Source: an uncultured Bacilli bacterium (lineage in GTDB: Bacteria > Bacillota_I > Bacilli_A > RF39 > UBA660). Taken from it: DNA of 38,905 nt. The translations under genes were made by a program, and so were the position numbers. Location of the stretch: positions 1 through 38,905 of the forward strand of contig CANQGB010000010.1 in assembly GCA_947600335.1 (NCBI GenBank), given 5' to 3'. The notes under the pieces were generated by a model that saw only the letters and a program-made list of their open reading frames with translations, was not told the DNA's origin and made no database searches. Shown one piece after another: positions 3,683-14,109 of the stretch (position 1 is the first letter of the stretch; the number at the start of each line of letters is the position of its first letter).

Positions 3683-4345
3683 ATGGAAAGAAAAAACACA
3701 ATATTATTAACAGTTATTGCTATAGCAACATTATTGGTGGCAGTAGTTGGAGCAACATTTGCATATTTTACTGCAGGATTAACAATTCAAAATGATAATA
3801 AGGATAATACGTCTGCAGCAGATGTTACAACTAAGGTTTTTGTTAATACTACATTTGATTATGGTAATAAAATAAATCCTTTAGATGATGCAATACCAGG
3901 TCATGCTGATTTGAAGACAATGAAAGTAACTGGTAGTGATGGTGATGAAGCTGCAACAATTAAATTAACAATGACACCTAATATTGCTACCGAATTTGGT
4001 GATGATGTTAAGTATAAGCTTTATAGCGTAAATACCAGTGAAATTGAAACAAAAAAAGTAACTTGTACTGAGTCAACTAGGGTAGCTGTTCCTGGAGATG
4101 ATGGCAATGTTAATTATTCTGATTCTATGACTTGTTCAGCAACTGGCGACATTAGTCCAGTTATTAATGGTAGTTTTAGTGGACAAACACCAGTAGAATA
4201 TACTATTACAGTTGAGCCAAATTCAGATGTTACATATTTTTTAGTTGTTCAATATGAAAATGATCCATCTTCAGCTCAAGCTGCACAAGGAAAAACATAT
4301 AAAGTAGATTTAAAAGTTGAAAATGTTCCAAATAAAAATGCCTAA
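3683..4345 (+). CDS. TasA/camelysin-like fibre protein, SipW-class signal, 220 aa
   Basis: The N-terminus MERKNTILL... continues through a hydrophobic core to 'VAVVGATFAYFTAGLT' (about residues 18-33), the hallmark of signal peptides cut by SipW-type signal peptidases in TasA/CalY-family proteins. The mature part is beta-rich with an Asn/Asp/Thr-rich surface. It has a conserved Cys pair (in 'KVTCTES' and 'SMTCSATG') that could form a disulfide outside the cell. The C-terminal strand pattern 'NSDVTYFLVVQYENDP' fits the family beta-sandwich. In Bacillus subtilis TasA builds biofilm matrix fibres, and a fibre role here is inferred. GGAGGAG lies 9 nt upstream. The gene has its own promoter and terminator (4356-4378). 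The closest relative is the next gene, at 4911. Confidence 0.8.
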   Translation: MERKNTILLTVIAIATLLVAVVGATFAYFTAGLTIQNDNKDNTSAADVTTKVFVNTTFDYGNKINPLDDAIPGHADLKTMKVTGSDGDEAATIKLTMTPNIATEFGDDVKYKLYSVNTSEIETKKVTCTESTRVAVPGDDGNVNYSDSMTCSATGDISPVINGSFSGQTPVEYTITVEPNSDVTYFLVVQYENDPSSAQAAQGKTYKVDLKVENVPNKNA

Positions 4346-4355
4346 AAAATAATAG

Positions 4356-4378
4356 ACTACCAAGGTTGGTAGTTTTTA
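4356..4378 (+). terminator. Terminator with ACTACC/GGTAGT stem
   Basis: ACTACCAA / TTGGTAGT with a very short loop, then TTTTT. It follows the first TasA-like gene by about 10 nt. Confidence 0.75.
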
Positions 4379-4496
4379 AATTATTAGAAAAAAGCTATAG
4401 TAAAGAAGATATGAAATTATAGTTTAGTAATTATGAATATAAATAATTTGCTATATAGTCATTAAGATTATATTCGGTTATTTTGCGTTTTAATAG

Positions 4497-4530
4497 GAGT
4501 AATGTAGTTTGTCTTCATTACTCTTTTTTT
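4497..4530 (+). terminator. Orphan intrinsic terminator
   Basis: GAGTAATG (4497-4504), 11-nt loop, CATTACTC (4516-4523), then seven T. It lies 120 nt beyond the terminator of the first TasA-like gene with no ORF in between, so it may end a small RNA. Confidence 0.75.
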
Positions 4531-4722
4531 GACTATGTATTTTATTTTTAATGTTATAAAAAATATATCTTAAATAAATCGACAATTTATAAATGTATAA
4601 AGTGTTAAAAAATAGTTAATAATATTTGTATAGGGAATTAATATATGTAAAATAATGTTTTCAAAAAAATTGGCTTATATTTCTTTATTAAATATTATAT
4701 TTTGGAGGGTGTTATACTTAAG

Positions 4723-4839
4723 ATGCAATTATACTGCAAATTAAATATAAATAACATCAATTTAATTAAAGTTAAATTAAATGCTTCTAATAATATATAT
4801 TTAAAGTTATTGACTATAAAGTGTATCTTAAATAGTTAA
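4723..4839 (+). CDS. Possible small ORF, 38 aa
   Basis: ATG at 4723 with GGAGGG 13-15 nt upstream (rather far), reading MQLYCKLNINN... to TAA at 4837-4839. It is Asn/Leu/Ile-rich, with no signal peptide and no known family. It ends just before the promoter at 4847. Composition is like the surrounding intergenic DNA, so it may be chance. Confidence 0.2.
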   Translation: MQLYCKLNINNINLIKVKLNASNNIYLKLLTIKCILNS

Positions 4840-4846
4840 AATTATC

Positions 4847-4875
4847 TTGCATTACATTAATTTTTTTGCTATTAT
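4847..4875 (+). promoter_or_regulatory. Promoter of the second TasA-like gene
   Basis: TTGCAT (4847-4852), 17-bp spacer, TATTAT (4870-4875) with extended TGC. It is nearly identical to the promoter at 3628-3656. Confidence 0.8.
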
Positions 4876-4910
4876 CTTTATAGTAGTAGATAGTAGGGAG
4901 GAAATAGACA

Positions 4911-5576
4911 ATGGAAAAAATGGAAAGAAAGAATACAATATTGTTAACAATAATTTCAGTAGCGACATTATTAGTTGCAGCAGTAGGAGCAACATTTGCA
5001 TACTTTACTTCTACTTTAACAATTAATTCTACTAATAAAAGTAATACATCTGCTGCAAATGCTAAAACTAGAACTTTAGTAAGTGCTACATTTGATTATG
5101 GTAGTGCGATAACTGCTTCAACCACTGCCTTGCCAGGTCATACTGATTTAAAAACAATGAAAGTGACAGGTACTGCTGGTGATACATCTGCAAAAATTCG
5201 ATTAACTATGACGCCTAATATTGCTACCGAATTTGGTAGTGACATTCATTATACTTTATATAGTGCAAATACTAGTGATATTGCAACGAAAAATGTAACT
5301 TGCACCGCTTCTAAAGTAGTGTCTTCTGTTCAATCAGATGGTTCTGTACGATATTATGATTCATCAACATGTACTGCCAATGGTAGTATTACAAAGGTTA
5401 AAGAGGGTTCTTTCACCGGAACTACAGCAGTAACTCAAGATATCACCGTTGCAGCAAATTCAAATGTTACATACTATTTGGTTGTCCAATATGTAAATAA
5501 TACTGAAGCTGCTCAAAGTGCACAAGGTAAATCATACTCAGTAACATTAAGTGTTAAGAGTCTTTCAGCTCTTTAG
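4911..5576 (+). CDS. TasA/camelysin-like fibre protein, tandem paralogue, 221 aa
   Basis: A close paralogue of the gene at 3683. It has the same SipW-class signal ('LLVAAVGATFAYFTSTLT'), the same 'PGHTDLKTMKVTG' and 'IRLTMTPNIATEFGSD' blocks, the same Cys pair ('NVTCTAS', 'SSTCTANG') and the same C-terminal 'SNVTYYLVVQYVNN'. It is richer in Ser/Thr and poorer in Asp than its sister, so the mature subunits should differ in charge. AGGGAGG lies 9 nt before the ATG at 4911; the sister's start corresponds to codon 4 (ATG 4920). It has its own promoter and a terminator at 5583. Two tandem subunits could be co-assembled or alternative fibre components. The family assignment rests on signal and pattern, not on a search. 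Confidence 0.8.
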   Translation: MEKMERKNTILLTIISVATLLVAAVGATFAYFTSTLTINSTNKSNTSAANAKTRTLVSATFDYGSAITASTTALPGHTDLKTMKVTGTAGDTSAKIRLTMTPNIATEFGSDIHYTLYSANTSDIATKNVTCTASKVVSSVQSDGSVRYYDSSTCTANGSITKVKEGSFTGTTAVTQDITVAANSNVTYYLVVQYVNNTEAAQSAQGKSYSVTLSVKSLSAL

Positions 5577-5825: not shown

Positions 5826-6713
5826 ATGAAGCAAAAAGTACTCGAAATTATAAATGTATGCAATGATGGATTGTTTAAAGCCTTTTTTCGTGATATCAAA
5901 GTAAGAGAGATGGTGGCGACATTTGTAAGTAAAATATTACATATTGATAAAGAATTGATAAAAAGGGGAGAATTTCAGGGAGGAGAATTAATAAAGAAAA
6001 ATAAAAATGAAAAAGCAAAGACTTCCGATATAATAATAAAGCTAGAAAATGGCGATAGAATAATAATCGAAATGAATCAATTTCCTAGTAAGAATATCTT
6101 TGAAAAGAATACTAGTTATGGATTTTCGTTATTATCAGAAATAGTGCCAGTTGGGAGTAAAGATTATCCCAAGGTGTATATCATAAATATAGATTGTTTT
6201 AATAAGTTTAAAACAAAAAGCCCAATAATAAGGTTTAAATTAAGAGATGAAGAAGGAAATGAAGAGATAAATATTTATGAATCAGTACATGTAATAGTTG
6301 AAAATGTCTTAAGTGATGAATATAATGGAGATGAAGACATTAAAAAAGTAGTAAAATTATTAATGATGAAAGATATCAAGAAAATGAAAAAAGAATTTGC
6401 CAAGGAGGAAATGTATATGGCAGCAATAAGAAGAGTAGAAGAATTATCAACTGATCCAAATCATGTGGGATATTATAACTTAGAAGAAGCTCATAAACAA
6501 GATTTGTATGGGATGTGGGAAGCTGGAAAAGAAAATGGAATTGGAATAGGCCGAGAGCTTGGAATAAAAGATGGCATTGGTATTGGCCACCAAGAGGCAA
6601 CATTAATGATGATAAATAATATGCTATCTAAGAATTTTGATATGGAAACTATTTCTGAGATAGTTAATATGCCAGTACCGGAAATTAAAAAACTCCGAAA
6701 ATTAAAGAAATAA
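5826..6713 (+). CDS. Rpn/PDDEXK-type recombination-promoting nuclease, 295 aa
   Basis: It belongs by pattern to the PD-(D/E)XK 'Rpn family nuclease/putative transposase' group. The N-terminal 'NDGLFKAFFRD' corresponds to the family's D-x-x-F-K-x-x-F block. D68 in 'KTSDIIIKLENGD' and E82 in 'IIIEMNQ' fit the D...E-x-N/Q active site. The C-terminal part (from about residue 196) is a helical domain with a Gly-rich linker ('GIGIGRELGIKDGIGIG') and a terminal helix pair ending in 'PEIKKLRKLKK', usual for these proteins. AAGGAGG lies 8 nt before the ATG. Inside the gene, AAGGAGG at 6402-6408 precedes an in-frame ATG (codon 198), so the C-terminal domain can be made alone. In enteric Rpn proteins such intragenic short forms are reported to inhibit the toxic full-length nuclease. 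The domain is also duplicated downstream (6779-7087). Confidence 0.8.
   Translation: MKQKVLEIINVCNDGLFKAFFRDIKVREMVATFVSKILHIDKELIKRGEFQGGELIKKNKNEKAKTSDIIIKLENGDRIIIEMNQFPSKNIFEKNTSYGFSLLSEIVPVGSKDYPKVYIINIDCFNKFKTKSPIIRFKLRDEEGNEEINIYESVHVIVENVLSDEYNGDEDIKKVVKLLMMKDIKKMKKEFAKEEMYMAAIRRVEELSTDPNHVGYYNLEEAHKQDLYGMWEAGKENGIGIGRELGIKDGIGIGHQEATLMMINNMLSKNFDMETISEIVNMPVPEIKKLRKLKK
6417..6713 (+). CDS. Internal start: free C-terminal domain of the Rpn nuclease, 98 aa
   Basis: A perfect AAGGAGG (6402-6408) sits 8 nt before the in-frame ATG at 6417 (codon 198 of the full-length protein). The spacing is ideal, and better than at many gene starts in this window. The product would start MAAIRRVEELS and contain only the helical domain and the Gly-rich segment, without the D68/E82 active site. 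By analogy with the intragenic short proteins of enteric rpn genes (RpnS, which bind and block the long form) this could be a self-encoded antitoxin. A second ATG at 6411 is too close (2 nt) to the Shine-Dalgarno. Confidence 0.6.
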   Translation: MAAIRRVEELSTDPNHVGYYNLEEAHKQDLYGMWEAGKENGIGIGRELGIKDGIGIGHQEATLMMINNMLSKNFDMETISEIVNMPVPEIKKLRKLKK

Positions 6714-6778
6714 GAAATTAAGGTAATTTTAGTCTTTTGAAATATCTGATAAATGAATTTGCCAAGGAGGAAATGTAT

Positions 6779-7087
6779 ATGGCAGCAATAAGAAGAGTAG
6801 AAGAATTATCAACTGATCCAAATCATGTGGGATATTATAAGTTAGAAGAGGCTCATAAACAAGATTTATATGGGATGTGGGAAGCTGGAAAAGAAAATGG
6901 AATTGGAATAGGCCGAGAGCTTGGCATTGGTATTGGCCGGGAACAAGGAATAAAAGATGGGCAAATAATGCAACAAAAGGAAATGATAAACAATATGTTA
7001 GCTAAGAATTTCGATATGGAAACTATTTCTGAGATAGTTAATATGCCAGTACCGGAAATTAAAAAATTACAAAAATTAAAAAAATAA
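6779..7087 (+). CDS. Stand-alone duplicate of the Rpn C-terminal domain, 102 aa
   Basis: A second copy of the Rpn C-terminal domain, with the same AAGGAGG (6764-6770) and 8-nt spacing to ATG 6779. The frame is open further upstream to a TTG at 6737, but the Shine-Dalgarno fits 6779. The protein starts MAAIRRVEELS, is nearly identical to residues 198-295 of the nuclease, and carries a rearranged linker with an extra glycine repeat ('GIGIGRELGIGIGREQGIKD'). It has no catalytic domain. It lies 65 nt after the rpn stop with no terminator between, so it is probably co-transcribed. It may be an extra dose of inhibitor, or a fragment left by duplication. The intact frame despite the 12-nt change argues that it is translated. 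Confidence 0.7.
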   Translation: MAAIRRVEELSTDPNHVGYYKLEEAHKQDLYGMWEAGKENGIGIGRELGIGIGREQGIKDGQIMQQKEMINNMLAKNFDMETISEIVNMPVPEIKKLQKLKK

Positions 7088-7149
7088 GAAATTAAGGTAA
7101 TTTTAGTCTTTTAAATCTTTTGAGAGCATGACCTTTTTTGAATTTATAT

Positions 7150-7205: not shown

Positions 7206-9362
7206 ATGAATAACAACGATAATAATAAAGAAAAAAATAATGTTAGTGAAGACTTTCAAGAACAATATGATATTTTAATTGAAGAGGAAAAGGAAAAAGA
7301 GAAAAGAAAAAATTTTATTGTTTTTATAATATGTATTTTTGTTATAATTGTTTCGGTTTTAGTTTCTACTTATTCTTTTAGAGTAATTCATAATTTAAAA
7401 GCTAGTCAAAAATTAAAGTTAAATATAGATTTAAATAATGATGGTAAACCAGATTTAAACATTGATCTTGATAATGATGGGTCATGTGATGTAAACTGTG
7501 ATTATAATAATGATGAGAAGCCTGATACTAATTTAGATTATTATGGTGATAATATTCCAAGATTTAATATTGATCTTGATGGTGATGGTATTCCTGATGA
7601 AAATCTATTAAATTATGATGTTGATAAAGATGGCGTATGTGATTTAAACTGTGATACGAATAATGATGGTATACCAGATACAAATATTGATATGAATGGT
7701 GATGGTAAACCTAATTTGAATCTTGATACGGATAATGATGGAGTACCAGATTTAAATATTGATACTAAACATGATGGTAAACCAGATTTAAATGTTGATA
7801 CCAATAATGATGGAAAACCAGATTTAAATGTCGATACAGATAATGATGGAGTACCAGATTTGAATATTGACACTAAAGATGATGGTAAACCAAATGTTAA
7901 TGTTGACACGAATGATGATGGAAAGCCTGATATTAATATTGATACAAATGGTGATAATAAACCAGATATAAATATTGATGTAGATAATGATAATAAACCA
8001 GATGTTAATATTGATACAAATGGTGATGGTCAACCAGATTTAAATTTATCTGAACAAGATACGGATGGTAATTATGTATGTGATTTAAACTGTGATACGA
8101 ATAATGATAATATCCCGGATTTAAATGTTGATCTTAATGGTGATGGTAATGCCGATTTAAATATTGATACGAATAATGATAGAAAACCAGATGTTAATGT
8201 TGATACAAATGGTGATGGTAAAGCTGATTTGAATATTGATACGAATAATGATAGAAAACCAGATACCAATGTCGATACGAATAATGATGGTAAGCCAGAT
8301 ATAAATTTTGATATTAATCATGATGGAATCCCAGATGTTAATGTAGATACAAATGGTGATAAAATACCTGATAGTAATCTATCTAATCAAGATACAAATG
8401 GTGATAATGTATGCGATTTAAACTGTGATACGAATAATGATAATATCCCAGATTTAAATGTTGATCTTAATGGTAATGGTGATCCTGATTTAAATATTGA
8501 TACAAATGGTGATGGTAAACCGGATGTCAATGTCGATACTAAGGGTGATGGTAAACCAGATATCAATGTCGATGTTGATGGTAATGGTGTACCTGATTTG
8601 AACATTGATATTGATGGTGATGGTACCCCAGATGTTAACGTTGATACAACTGGTGATGGTACTCCAGATGGTAATACAACTAACCAAGATACTGATGGTG
8701 ATGGTGTTTGTGATTTAAACTGTGATACTAATGAAGATGGAAAGCCAGATATAAATATTGATGTAGATAATGATGGTAAACCAGATTTAAATATTGATAC
8801 TAATGATGATCAACTACCAGATATTAATATTGATACTAATGATAATGGAATACCAGATGTTAACGTAGATTTAACTAATGATAATTCTCCAGATGTAAGT
8901 ATCGATTCTGATGGTGATGGTGTTTGTGATACTGATTGCCGGGATGAAAATTCTATTGGTGAAATAAAACCGCCAGCTAGTGGTGATATTATAGTTTATC
9001 TATCTTATAGTAAGGGTGTTGGAGCTACTTATATTGAACCAGGTTGGAGTGGAACGCAAGAATTTAATTTAGAAAATAATTCAGATTTTACTGTAGCATA
9101 TAATTTAAATTGGAGTAAAGTTACTAATACTTTTAGTGCTAATGGTGGATTTGTATTTAGTCTAAAAAGAGATGGTGAAACTTTATTAAGTGAGTTAGAG
9201 GCTCCTAGTGAGGATTCAAGCTTGATGAATCATATTATTCTACCACCTCATACAACTCATCACTATCAAATATTATATGAATTTAAAGAAACTGGAGAAA
9301 ATCAAAATATTGATCAAGGAAAACACTTTAATGCAAAAATAACCGCTGAATTAATAAATTAA
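7206..9362 (+). CDS. Giant Asp/Asn/Gly-repeat surface protein with TasA-like C-terminal domain, 718 aa
   Basis: Residues 1-37 are charged and cytoplasmic-like, followed by an uncleaved-looking transmembrane helix (about 38-58). From about residue 75 to 585 the chain is some 40 repeats of 12 residues of the type 'NIDTNNDGKPDL', close to thrombospondin type 3/EF-hand-loop calcium-binding repeats (D-x-N-x-D-G-x-x-D). Six 'CDLNC'-type Cys pairs (near residues 95, 143, 290, 401, 500 and 573) interrupt the array and could be disulfide staples. Residues about 590-718 form a beta domain with 'EPGWSGTQEFNLENNSDFTV' and 'PPHTTHHYQILYEF', matching the strand pattern of the small TasA-like protein at 28523. 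This suggests a long calcium-stiffened stalk carrying a fibre subunit head, anchored as a type II membrane protein. AAGGAGAG lies about 10 nt upstream. It precedes sipW, but the first helix lacks an obvious SipW cleavage motif. Confidence 0.75.
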   Translation: MNNNDNNKEKNNVSEDFQEQYDILIEEEKEKEKRKNFIVFIICIFVIIVSVLVSTYSFRVIHNLKASQKLKLNIDLNNDGKPDLNIDLDNDGSCDVNCDYNNDEKPDTNLDYYGDNIPRFNIDLDGDGIPDENLLNYDVDKDGVCDLNCDTNNDGIPDTNIDMNGDGKPNLNLDTDNDGVPDLNIDTKHDGKPDLNVDTNNDGKPDLNVDTDNDGVPDLNIDTKDDGKPNVNVDTNDDGKPDINIDTNGDNKPDINIDVDNDNKPDVNIDTNGDGQPDLNLSEQDTDGNYVCDLNCDTNNDNIPDLNVDLNGDGNADLNIDTNNDRKPDVNVDTNGDGKADLNIDTNNDRKPDTNVDTNNDGKPDINFDINHDGIPDVNVDTNGDKIPDSNLSNQDTNGDNVCDLNCDTNNDNIPDLNVDLNGNGDPDLNIDTNGDGKPDVNVDTKGDGKPDINVDVDGNGVPDLNIDIDGDGTPDVNVDTTGDGTPDGNTTNQDTDGDGVCDLNCDTNEDGKPDINIDVDNDGKPDLNIDTNDDQLPDINIDTNDNGIPDVNVDLTNDNSPDVSIDSDGDGVCDTDCRDENSIGEIKPPASGDIIVYLSYSKGVGATYIEPGWSGTQEFNLENNSDFTVAYNLNWSKVTNTFSANGGFVFSLKRDGETLLSELEAPSEDSSLMNHIILPPHTTHHYQILYEFKETGENQNIDQGKHFNAKITAELIN
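7420..8960 (+). repeat. 36-bp coding tandem repeats (12-aa Asp/Asn/Gly units)
   Basis: Roughly 40 imperfect 36-nt units, each with the core AATGATGGTAAACCAGAT or variants. The period is kept in frame, and larger blocks recur around each 'TGTGATTTAAACTGTGATAC' Cys-pair segment (about 7640, 8080, 8410, 8710). In-frame slippage or recombination would change stalk length without breaking the gene. The complementary strand is open as well because of the repeat, producing spurious ORFs. Confidence 0.9.
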
Positions 9363-9372
9363 ATAGTAAAAG

Positions 9373-9394
9373 ACTCATAAAAATGAGTTTTTTT
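9373..9394 (+). terminator. Terminator of the repeat-protein gene
   Basis: ACTCAT, loop AAAA, ATGAGT, then seven T. Confidence 0.8.
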
Positions 9395-9418
9395 ATTATA
9401 ATTTTTACTAAGTGGGTA

Positions 9419-9447
9419 TTGTATTTTTGGCTTATGTATTTTATAAT
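9419..9447 (+). promoter_or_regulatory. Promoter of sipW
   Basis: TTGTAT (9419-9424), 17-bp spacer, TATAAT (9442-9447). Confidence 0.7.
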
Positions 9448-9474
9448 TAAAAAGAATAGAGAGGGCTGTGGCAA

Positions 9475-10329
9475 ATGAAACCAAAACAAAACTATAGTGG
9501 CATTAAGGGTAAAGCCAAATTTATTACTACAGCCATTTCTTGGAGTCTTTTAATTATCTTAATATTAGTAGCATCTTTTTTAGCTTACTATTTAATAAGT
9601 ACTAGAATTTATGCTCAAAAAGGGGAAAAATATGAGCCATATGTAGCTTTATATAATGTTATAACGCAAAGTATGGTTCCTAATATTAATCCCCAAGATG
9701 TTGTTTTAACTGTCAAAGTTAAGAATCCTGATGATATAAAAATAGGGGATGTTATTACTTTTTATTCAACTAGTTCTATTTCTATGGGAAAAATTATAAC
9801 ACATAGAGTTGTAGAGTTGGTTACTACAGATAATGGTGTTGCTTATCGAACTAAAGGAGATTTTAATACAGCACCTGATACATCACCAGCTGAATTTCAT
9901 AATGTAATTGGTAAAGTTGTTTTAAGAATTCCCCAATTAGGGAGAGTACAAAGTTTATTAGCTAGTAAAGGGGGATGGTTAATATTAATTGTTATTCCAG
10001 CCTTAGCAGTTATAATTTCCGATATATTAAAGTTGTTTCATTTAACAGACATTAAGAAAAAAGTAACTGTTATTGAACAAAGAGAAGAACAAGAAAGAAA
10101 ATTACAAGAAACTAAAGAAGAAGAAAGAAAAAAAGAACTGCGAAAAAAATTAAAACTGGAAACTAGCATTTATGAACCAGATCCAATTGAGGTAAATAAA
10201 CCAACAAGAATAGTGATTGGAGAATCAGTAGTAAATATTAATAAAGATGATATTGATGATAATCAAGTAGATAAGAAGAAAAAGAAAAAATCTAATAAGA
10301 AAAATAAAAAGAAAAATTTGCCAAACTAA
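9475..10329 (+). CDS. sipW: SipW-type (ER/archaeal-class) signal peptidase I, 284 aa
   Basis: It has an N-terminal transmembrane helix (about 20-42), then the signal peptidase core: 'TQSMVPNINPQDVV' with the nucleophile Ser, 'IITHRVVEL' with the His that replaces Lys in the ER/SipW class, and 'RTKGDFNTAPD' with the conserved Asp. A second membrane helix spans about residues 164-186. SipW cuts the special signal peptides of TasA/CalY-family proteins, and at least four candidate substrates lie in this window. Unlike typical SipW, it has a tail of about 95 residues after the second helix. The tail is first an Arg/Glu-rich coiled-coil-like stretch, then a Lys-rich end, and is predicted to be cytoplasmic. 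In B. subtilis SipW the cytoplasmic end has a separate regulatory role in biofilm formation, so this tail may too. GAGAGGG lies about 10 nt upstream. Confidence 0.85.
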   Translation: MKPKQNYSGIKGKAKFITTAISWSLLIILILVASFLAYYLISTRIYAQKGEKYEPYVALYNVITQSMVPNINPQDVVLTVKVKNPDDIKIGDVITFYSTSSISMGKIITHRVVELVTTDNGVAYRTKGDFNTAPDTSPAEFHNVIGKVVLRIPQLGRVQSLLASKGGWLILIVIPALAVIISDILKLFHLTDIKKKVTVIEQREEQERKLQETKEEERKKELRKKLKLETSIYEPDPIEVNKPTRIVIGESVVNINKDDIDDNQVDKKKKKKSNKKNKKKNLPN

Positions 10330-12869: not shown

Positions 12870-12954
12870 AGTGTAAAAAAATTCCATTTGATTTATTAAT
12901 CATTGTATTTTTTTTGCAATTTACATATAATAATATTAATTGAAGGTGAAGATT

Positions 12955-14109
12955 ATGTTAAAAAAAGTAAAATTAGATAATTATGCAACATTTATTAAAC
13001 CAACAGAAATAGATTTTTCAGCAACTAACTATAAGTTTCTAGAAAATGAAAATGTCGGAAGTAATAAAATACTTAAAGGTTGTCTATTTGTTGGTGAAAA
13101 TGCTTCTGGTAAAACAAAAATATTAAAAAGTATAACATTATTACTTGATTTATTATTTGGAAATAGCGAAGTTGATTTGATGGCCAATAAAAGCTTTTAC
13201 ACTAATAAACTAACTTATAAGCTTGAATATACATTTATAGAAGAAGAAAAAGAAATAATTTATTCGATTGAATTAAGTTTAGATGAAATTGTTTCAGAAA
13301 AATTGATAATTGATAAGCAAGTAATTTTAGAAAGACTAGGAAATACTGCAAAGTTTTATTTAAATGATGAAAAAACTTTTAGTGATATTTCAAATAAACT
13401 ATTATTTTTACGCAGAATATATTTTGATACCAATTTTTATGGAAATAAAATTCTTAATAAATGGTTTGATTATATGAAGAAATCTGTATATATTAATTGC
13501 TATTATAGAAGCGTTTTTAATTATTCAGGAACAAGTTTATTGGTTCATGAATATTTAAATAATAATGCAGTTGATGAAATAAATAATTTTTTAGAAAAAA
13601 TTGATTATAAACAAAAAATAGAATATGGGACTGAAACATCTGATCCGAATAAAAAGTTTTTTGTTAAATCAAATGATAATAAAAAATTTATTTCCTTTAA
13701 TAAGAAAGGTACAGATATTTACATTCCAGAAATGTTTGAATCAACCGGAAATATAACTCTTATGGAATTATTACCATCATTTTTATACGCGATTAATAAT
13801 GAATGTATGATAATTATTGATGAATTTAGTAGTGGTTTCCATAATGAATTAGAAGAATGCATAATAAAATATTTCTTTCATTATTCAAAAAATTCACAAC
13901 TTTTTTTTACTTCTCATTCTACAAATATTTTAAATAATACATTGATAAGACCAGATCAAATATATTCAGTTTATTTTGATTCAAAAAATGGTTCTATTTT
14001 AAAAAGATTTTCCGATGAAATGCCTAGAGAATCTCAAAATACAGAAAAGATGTATTTAAATGGAGTGTTTAATGGAGTGCCTAGATACAATAAAATCTTT
14101 AAAGATTAA
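12955..14109 (+). CDS. AAA-family ATPase of a defence-type ATPase/TOPRIM pair, 384 aa
   Basis: The N-terminus 'MLKKVKLDNYATFIKPTEID' and Walker A 'GENASGKT' (47-54) are typical of the AAA_15/AAA_21 (SMC/ABC-like, RloA/AbiLi) group. A Walker B 'CMIIIDEFSSGFHNELEE' (about 282-299) and 'FFTSHSTNIL' (about 318-327) complete the ATPase. The middle is a helical insertion with no motif I know. GAAGGTGA lies 6 nt before ATG 12955. The gene overlaps the next one by 38 nt (translational coupling), which encodes a TOPRIM-like protein. Pairs of this kind (AbiLi-AbiLii, RloA-RloB, AriA-AriB of PARIS) abort phage infection. A strong private promoter and a downstream toxin-antitoxin pair fit a defence segment. 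The precise subfamily is undetermined. Confidence 0.8.
   Translation: MLKKVKLDNYATFIKPTEIDFSATNYKFLENENVGSNKILKGCLFVGENASGKTKILKSITLLLDLLFGNSEVDLMANKSFYTNKLTYKLEYTFIEEEKEIIYSIELSLDEIVSEKLIIDKQVILERLGNTAKFYLNDEKTFSDISNKLLFLRRIYFDTNFYGNKILNKWFDYMKKSVYINCYYRSVFNYSGTSLLVHEYLNNNAVDEINNFLEKIDYKQKIEYGTETSDPNKKFFVKSNDNKKFISFNKKGTDIYIPEMFESTGNITLMELLPSFLYAINNECMIIIDEFSSGFHNELEECIIKYFFHYSKNSQLFFTSHSTNILNNTLIRPDQIYSVYFDSKNGSILKRFSDEMPRESQNTEKMYLNGVFNGVPRYNKIFKD

Follow-up and report, generated by a model that had tools for sequence, protein, structure and literature searches.

A putative RpnL/RpnS gene-within-gene locus with a second, free RpnS-type copy in an uncultured Bacilli bacterium

The rpn genes of Escherichia coli encode a toxic full-length nuclease, RpnL, and make from within the same gene an antitoxin, RpnS, that blocks it (Zhong et al. 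2023, PMC10327210). The same study reported that a short mRNA starts inside each E. coli rpn gene, that rpnE and rpnC are each followed by a free rpnS gene (ypaA in the case of rpnE), and that the ypaA product is made. The number of four-residue repeats varies between strains and sets the pairing; in a measurement made on E. coli RpnC only, one repeat added to RpnC_S abolished the inhibition of RpnC_L until both carried the addition. Fusion of an N-terminal domain to an rpnS region also occurs, a Gram-positive rpn gene from Clostridioides difficile likewise makes RpnS, and Rpn genes are present in 34 bacterial phyla (PMC10327210).

An antitoxin made from within the toxin gene, a free copy behind that gene, variation in repeat length and a Gram-positive case are therefore already known. 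An initial annotation of the locus described here proposed a Gram-positive toxin gene whose inhibitor is made both from within the gene and from a duplicate. The layout is as it described, and is not new, its elements and the C. difficile case being found in PMC10327210; since that study already reports these features, the interpretation amounts to a correct description of a system already in the literature. What is added here is a family-wide excess of internal starts and promoters, the recurrence of free RpnS-type copies under constraint, their consistent mismatch with the neighbouring gene, and the distribution of the two tails in E. coli.

The window, meaning the whole stretch of DNA that was analysed, is 38,905 nt of contig CANQGB010000010.1 from the assembly GCA_947600335.1 (fragmented, 69 contigs) of an uncultured Bacilli bacterium (RF39; UBA660) of gut type. 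Its rpn gene (5826–6713, forward strand) encodes a 295 aa protein of the full-length RpnL type. The protein scores 48 bits against PF12784 (PDDEXK_2; cut-off 27.4) and 70.1 bits against TIGR01784 (cut-off 52.1), bearing out the initial assignment to the PD-(D/E)XK Rpn family. The presumed active site, a signature of ND..FK, SD and E-M-N, is conserved across the genus and can be aligned with E. coli RpnE, with N for Q at the third position. PADLOC returned no match, and structure prediction of the full-length protein, from an alignment of two sequences only, gave a model too poor for use.

In layout, the closest counterpart is E. coli RpnE_L / RpnE_S / rpnES (ypaA), which also comprises a nuclease gene with an internal Shine-Dalgarno sequence and ATG, a downstream copy with its own Shine-Dalgarno sequence, and four-residue repeats. 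As in the window, the K-12 free copy ypaA exceeds the inner copy by exactly one repeat and ends in another tail. Unlike RpnE, the window protein belongs to a distant lineage, has Gly/Ile-rich repeats, and presents E-x-N rather than E-x-Q at the presumed active site; it is a PDDEXK_2 protein (PF12784), whereas E. coli RpnE is a Transposase_31 protein (PF04754, named in PMC5350276) and in K-12 is annotated as inactive. The C. difficile gene resembles the window gene in being Gram-positive with an internal start, from which RpnS production was shown there; unlike in the window, no free downstream copy is described for it in the parts of PMC10327210 consulted.

The rpn locus sits among surface-protein genes (3683–5576 and 7206–10,329), a conserved cluster that includes TasA/CalY-like proteins, a 718 aa protein of 12-residue Asp-rich repeats and a SipW-type signal peptidase. 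The TasA-like and repeat genes directly adjoin in genomes G007, G003, G017 and G013, whereas in G008 the same Asp-rich repeat gene is immediately preceded by another rpn gene (about 48% identical). These arrangements suggest that the spot within the cluster is a repeatedly used insertion site. Elsewhere in the window, an AAA ATPase gene (12,940–14,109, about 6 kb from the rpn locus) is weakly similar to the MADS3 and PtuA defence ATPases, and a Pol-beta superfamily nucleotidyltransferase gene (1310–2119) has a weak match to NTase-conflict.

Direct reading of the gene confirms the internal Shine-Dalgarno sequence AAGGAGG that had been noted at 6402–6408, 8 nt before an in-frame ATG at 6417. Another ATG in the same frame, at 6411, is only 2 nt from the Shine-Dalgarno sequence, too close for use with it. 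The frame that opens at 6417 and runs to 6713 would encode a 98 aa RpnS-type product with seven four-residue repeat units. The conservation of such starts was assessed in 64 distinct full-length rpn genes of the window's taxonomic family, 52 after removal of near-duplicates, an internal start being an ATG or GTG with a Shine-Dalgarno match of at least 5 nt, 70–119 aa from the C-terminus. The 52 genes include 34 with such a start, compared with 19.9 ± 2.5 when synonymous codons were permuted within each gene, and other 50 aa windows of the same genes gave only 5, 1, 4 and 3. Both the shuffles and the position rule out a chance Shine-Dalgarno sequence. Relatives lacking the internal signal would have spoken against the initial annotation; instead, judged by the synonymous shuffles, the internal start is conserved beyond the demands of the protein sequence.

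A predicted intragenic sigma-70 promoter, TTGAAA-17-TATAAT (11 of 12 positions matched), is found further upstream at 6298–6326. Within the 150 nt before the internal start, sites matching at least 11 of 12 positions are present in 14 of the 52 family genes against 2.9 ± 1.4 after shuffling and 0–1 in control windows, and sites matching at least 10 of 12 lie mostly 87–126 nt upstream of the internal start. With this conserved predicted promoter, a separate short mRNA such as that seen in E. coli would be expected in a distant lineage too.

The C-terminal part of the protein (the S domain) is related to the known antitoxin domain, as the family S-domain profile matches RpnA_S (PDB: 7th0) with an E value of 4.7e-4. 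An AlphaFold model of the S domain, of poor quality and with only two sequences in its alignment, has helices at residues 53–75, 80–87 and 91–99 with pLDDT values mostly of about 70–80; a Foldseek search with this model identified no significant match. In PDB entry 8vd6, chain A (a "CAP repeat") has five near-identical helix-turn-helix units that resemble the RpnS tail. A Gly-rich region of four-residue repeats occupies approximately 6528–6611 of the full-length gene. Between family copies and paralogues, its insertions and deletions are multiples of 4 aa (12 nt), and its counterpart in E. coli RpnS is the pairing helix.

Directly behind the gene, its 3' part is duplicated in tandem. Two direct repeats (families D3 and D4), pairing 6385–6565 with 6747–6927 (181 nt, 97% identity) and 6609–6741 with 6983–7115 (133 nt, 93% identity), show that the duplication is real and set its limits at about 6747–7115, slightly wider than the 6755–7112 first given. 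The duplicate retains, as had been reported, the same AAGGAGG (6764–6770) and an intact frame of 102 codons, opening at the duplicated ATG (6779) and ending with a stop codon at 7085–7087; an alternative reading from a TTG at 6737 gives 116 aa. This free-standing RpnS-type gene (6779–7087, forward strand) contains eight repeat units against seven in the gene. The two C-terminal frames are 86% identical, sharing head and tail regions with the Gly-rich units between them rearranged. The linker was initially said to have changed by 12 nt; the net gain is indeed 4 aa, although it did not arise as one simple 12-nt insertion.

The free copy is on the same strand as rpn after a gap of 65 nt without an intervening terminator. 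Since the duplicated segment begins downstream of the intragenic promoter, the free copy is without a comparable promoter of its own and, from this arrangement, is probably read from the same transcripts as rpn. An assembly artefact is an unlikely source of the duplication, the same layout being present in many other genomes including complete E. coli genomes.

A search of related genomes for rpn genes with a free downstream copy, the check that had been proposed, found that the arrangement recurs. The S domain is present in 136 of 291 genomes of the family, and free S copies lie directly downstream of full genes in G000, G008, G055 (two), G075 (two loci), G225, G243 and G306 (three), with a free S in G007 as well; they recur in six sampled genera, and in further cases a contig end truncates the upstream gene. 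At one G075 locus (contig C38; L084, 208–1677) a full rpn gene is followed by two free S frames, with fewer repeats in each successive one. Among loci not picked for having a free S, and with the window gene included in both counts, free copies accompany 2 of 11 decidable full genes in the genus and 2 of 13 among the family top hits. The pooled dN/dS of free copies against the upstream copy is 0.31; for full-length genes, compared in pairs across that region, it is 0.26. As the frames are kept and the two values are near each other, the free copies are not decaying as a class. A duplicate confined to one assembly with a broken frame would have undermined the initial annotation; the copies are instead recurrent, intact and constrained.

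In none of the pairs read are the free copy and its neighbour one and the same allele. In the family, the repeat number differs in 9 of 11 complete pairs of full gene and free S, always by multiples of 4 aa, and the other two pairs (G306, contig C18, and G055, contig C15) have equal repeats with different tails. There is no equal pair among 12 distinct two-copy haplotypes of E. coli rpnE, two of which were read by eye since the anchor motif was altered, and none among five distinct haplotypes of rpnC. Inner and free copy have unequal repeat numbers in all E. coli haplotypes that were read; in rpnE the repeat ranges of the two copies hardly overlap. Selection for mismatch was considered and set aside, as full-length paralogue pairs within one genome differ in repeat number about as often (10 of 12 close pairs). 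For this reason the mismatch is attributed to general hypervariability rather than to demonstrated selection. By analogy with the published repeat rule, free copies are predicted to neutralise the neighbouring toxin poorly, and the second tail is probably no simple backup off-switch.

The window's genome has both states of the locus, the two-copy arrangement described above and, on contig C19, a single-copy full-length rpn gene that is about 96% identical, has nine repeat units and ends in a tail of the free-copy type. The body and tail residues of the free copy are closer to this C19 gene than to the adjacent rpn. In G008, the repeat block of a free S is the same as that of a distant full-length gene on contig C20. 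Also in G008, an orphan RpnS-type frame with a strong Shine-Dalgarno sequence, AGAAGGAGAT, stands on contig C66 (L038, 829–1120) with no adjoining full-length rpn. As a general rule, an exact match between a free S and a different full-length gene of its own genome was rejected: the correspondence is only partial (the repeat block in G008), and none of the genomes compared has a full-length gene that agrees exactly in both repeats and tail. A phage source, or a phage-borne free RpnS, was likewise rejected: searches of viral contigs and phage records yielded no relatives, and a protein scan of genome contigs found none.

The two tails were counted in 5426 complete E. coli genomes. The rpnE inner tail (tailE) is present in 3099; 3095 have the junction of tailE with the free S, and 5363 have tailD, the tail of the free S. 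From the first two counts, tailE is almost never without a free S behind it. Some 2260 genomes have tailD without tailE, and all single-copy rpnE genes that were read end in tailD. The two-copy and single-copy states differ by one segment, as expected of recombination between the shared heads. This pattern of sequences suggests that tails are exchanged via recombination, the change being either a loss through fusion or a gain through insertion.

Truncated downstream copies with a homologous head, which recombine and replace a variable C-terminus, are familiar from the orphan toxin/immunity modules of CDI and Rhs systems and from silent pilin cassettes. There, toxin or antigen domains are swapped; in rpn, the exchanged part would be the control domain of the toxin together with the antitoxin.

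The window locus has every defining RpnL/RpnS feature that could be settled by sequence. Its assignment to this toxin-antitoxin type, taken jointly with the explanation of the second, free RpnS copy as a spare allele, is given about even chances. By analogy with the family, the full gene would encode a toxic anti-phage DNA nuclease. The predicted intragenic promoter (6298–6326) and the internal ribosome-binding site (6402–6417) would make the C-terminal domain alone, and this RpnS, as in E. coli, would bind the same domain of the full-length protein by dimerisation through the repeat helix, silencing the nuclease. The free copy (6779–7087) would have arisen by recombination between rpn copies and is kept as coding sequence. 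With its different repeat number and tail, it is most likely a poor partner for the adjacent toxin; because the heads are shared, partial cross-inhibition is possible, and the free copy may bind rpn paralogues as well. The 181-nt heads are nearly identical and lie 362 bp apart; if they recombined, the inner tail would be lost and the toxin gene would take the free-copy tail, so that a single event would alter the toxin and its intragenic antitoxin alike. That free RpnS genes in general are mismatched spare alleles of the control tail, and that head recombination switches the specificity of toxin and intragenic antitoxin at a stroke, is put forward tentatively, as possible rather than probable.

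The view of the initial annotation, which makes the free copy a genuine second antitoxin gene raising the RpnS dose for the adjacent toxin, is also a possibility, if a doubtful one. The 97% identity of the heads, the same Shine-Dalgarno sequence and the same strand with a 65-nt gap and no terminator all agree with it, as do the constraint on free copies and the production of the ypaA protein (PMC10327210). However, the repeat number and tail differ in the window, none of the E. coli haplotypes read has equal repeat numbers in the two copies, and adding a single repeat was enough to abolish inhibition in E. coli RpnC (PMC10327210). With its additional repeat and its greater similarity to the C19 gene, the free copy is doubtful as an inhibitor dedicated to its neighbour. 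That similarity, in the tail residues, would fit an anti-addiction role against other rpn toxins, either the C19 paralogue or those of incoming mobile DNA, and so would the repeat block shared in G008 and the orphan S with its own Shine-Dalgarno sequence away from any full-length gene. This role is nevertheless unlikely given that the C19 paralogue has nine repeat units to the eight of the free S, that repeats plus tail were not matched exactly in any genome compared, and that phage records and viral contigs yielded no relatives.

Free copies start at different points, some appear eroded (G075, contig C35), and only about 2 of 11–13 decidable full genes have one, which would be expected if the copy were the non-functional remnant of a second tandem rpn gene with its nuclease part deleted. 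An intact frame and Shine-Dalgarno sequence that recur in several genera, a pooled dN/dS near that of functional copies, and repeat changes confined to multiples of 12 nt argue against such a remnant, making it quite unlikely.

Returning to the spare-allele explanation, its significance would lie in how a toxin and an antitoxin that share their coding bases can change in concert, a question that becomes testable if the free S fails to neutralise its neighbour. In that event, the free copies would be a source of new pairing specificity. If the explanation is true, the toxin-antitoxin lock of a population can be changed while lock and key stay together throughout.
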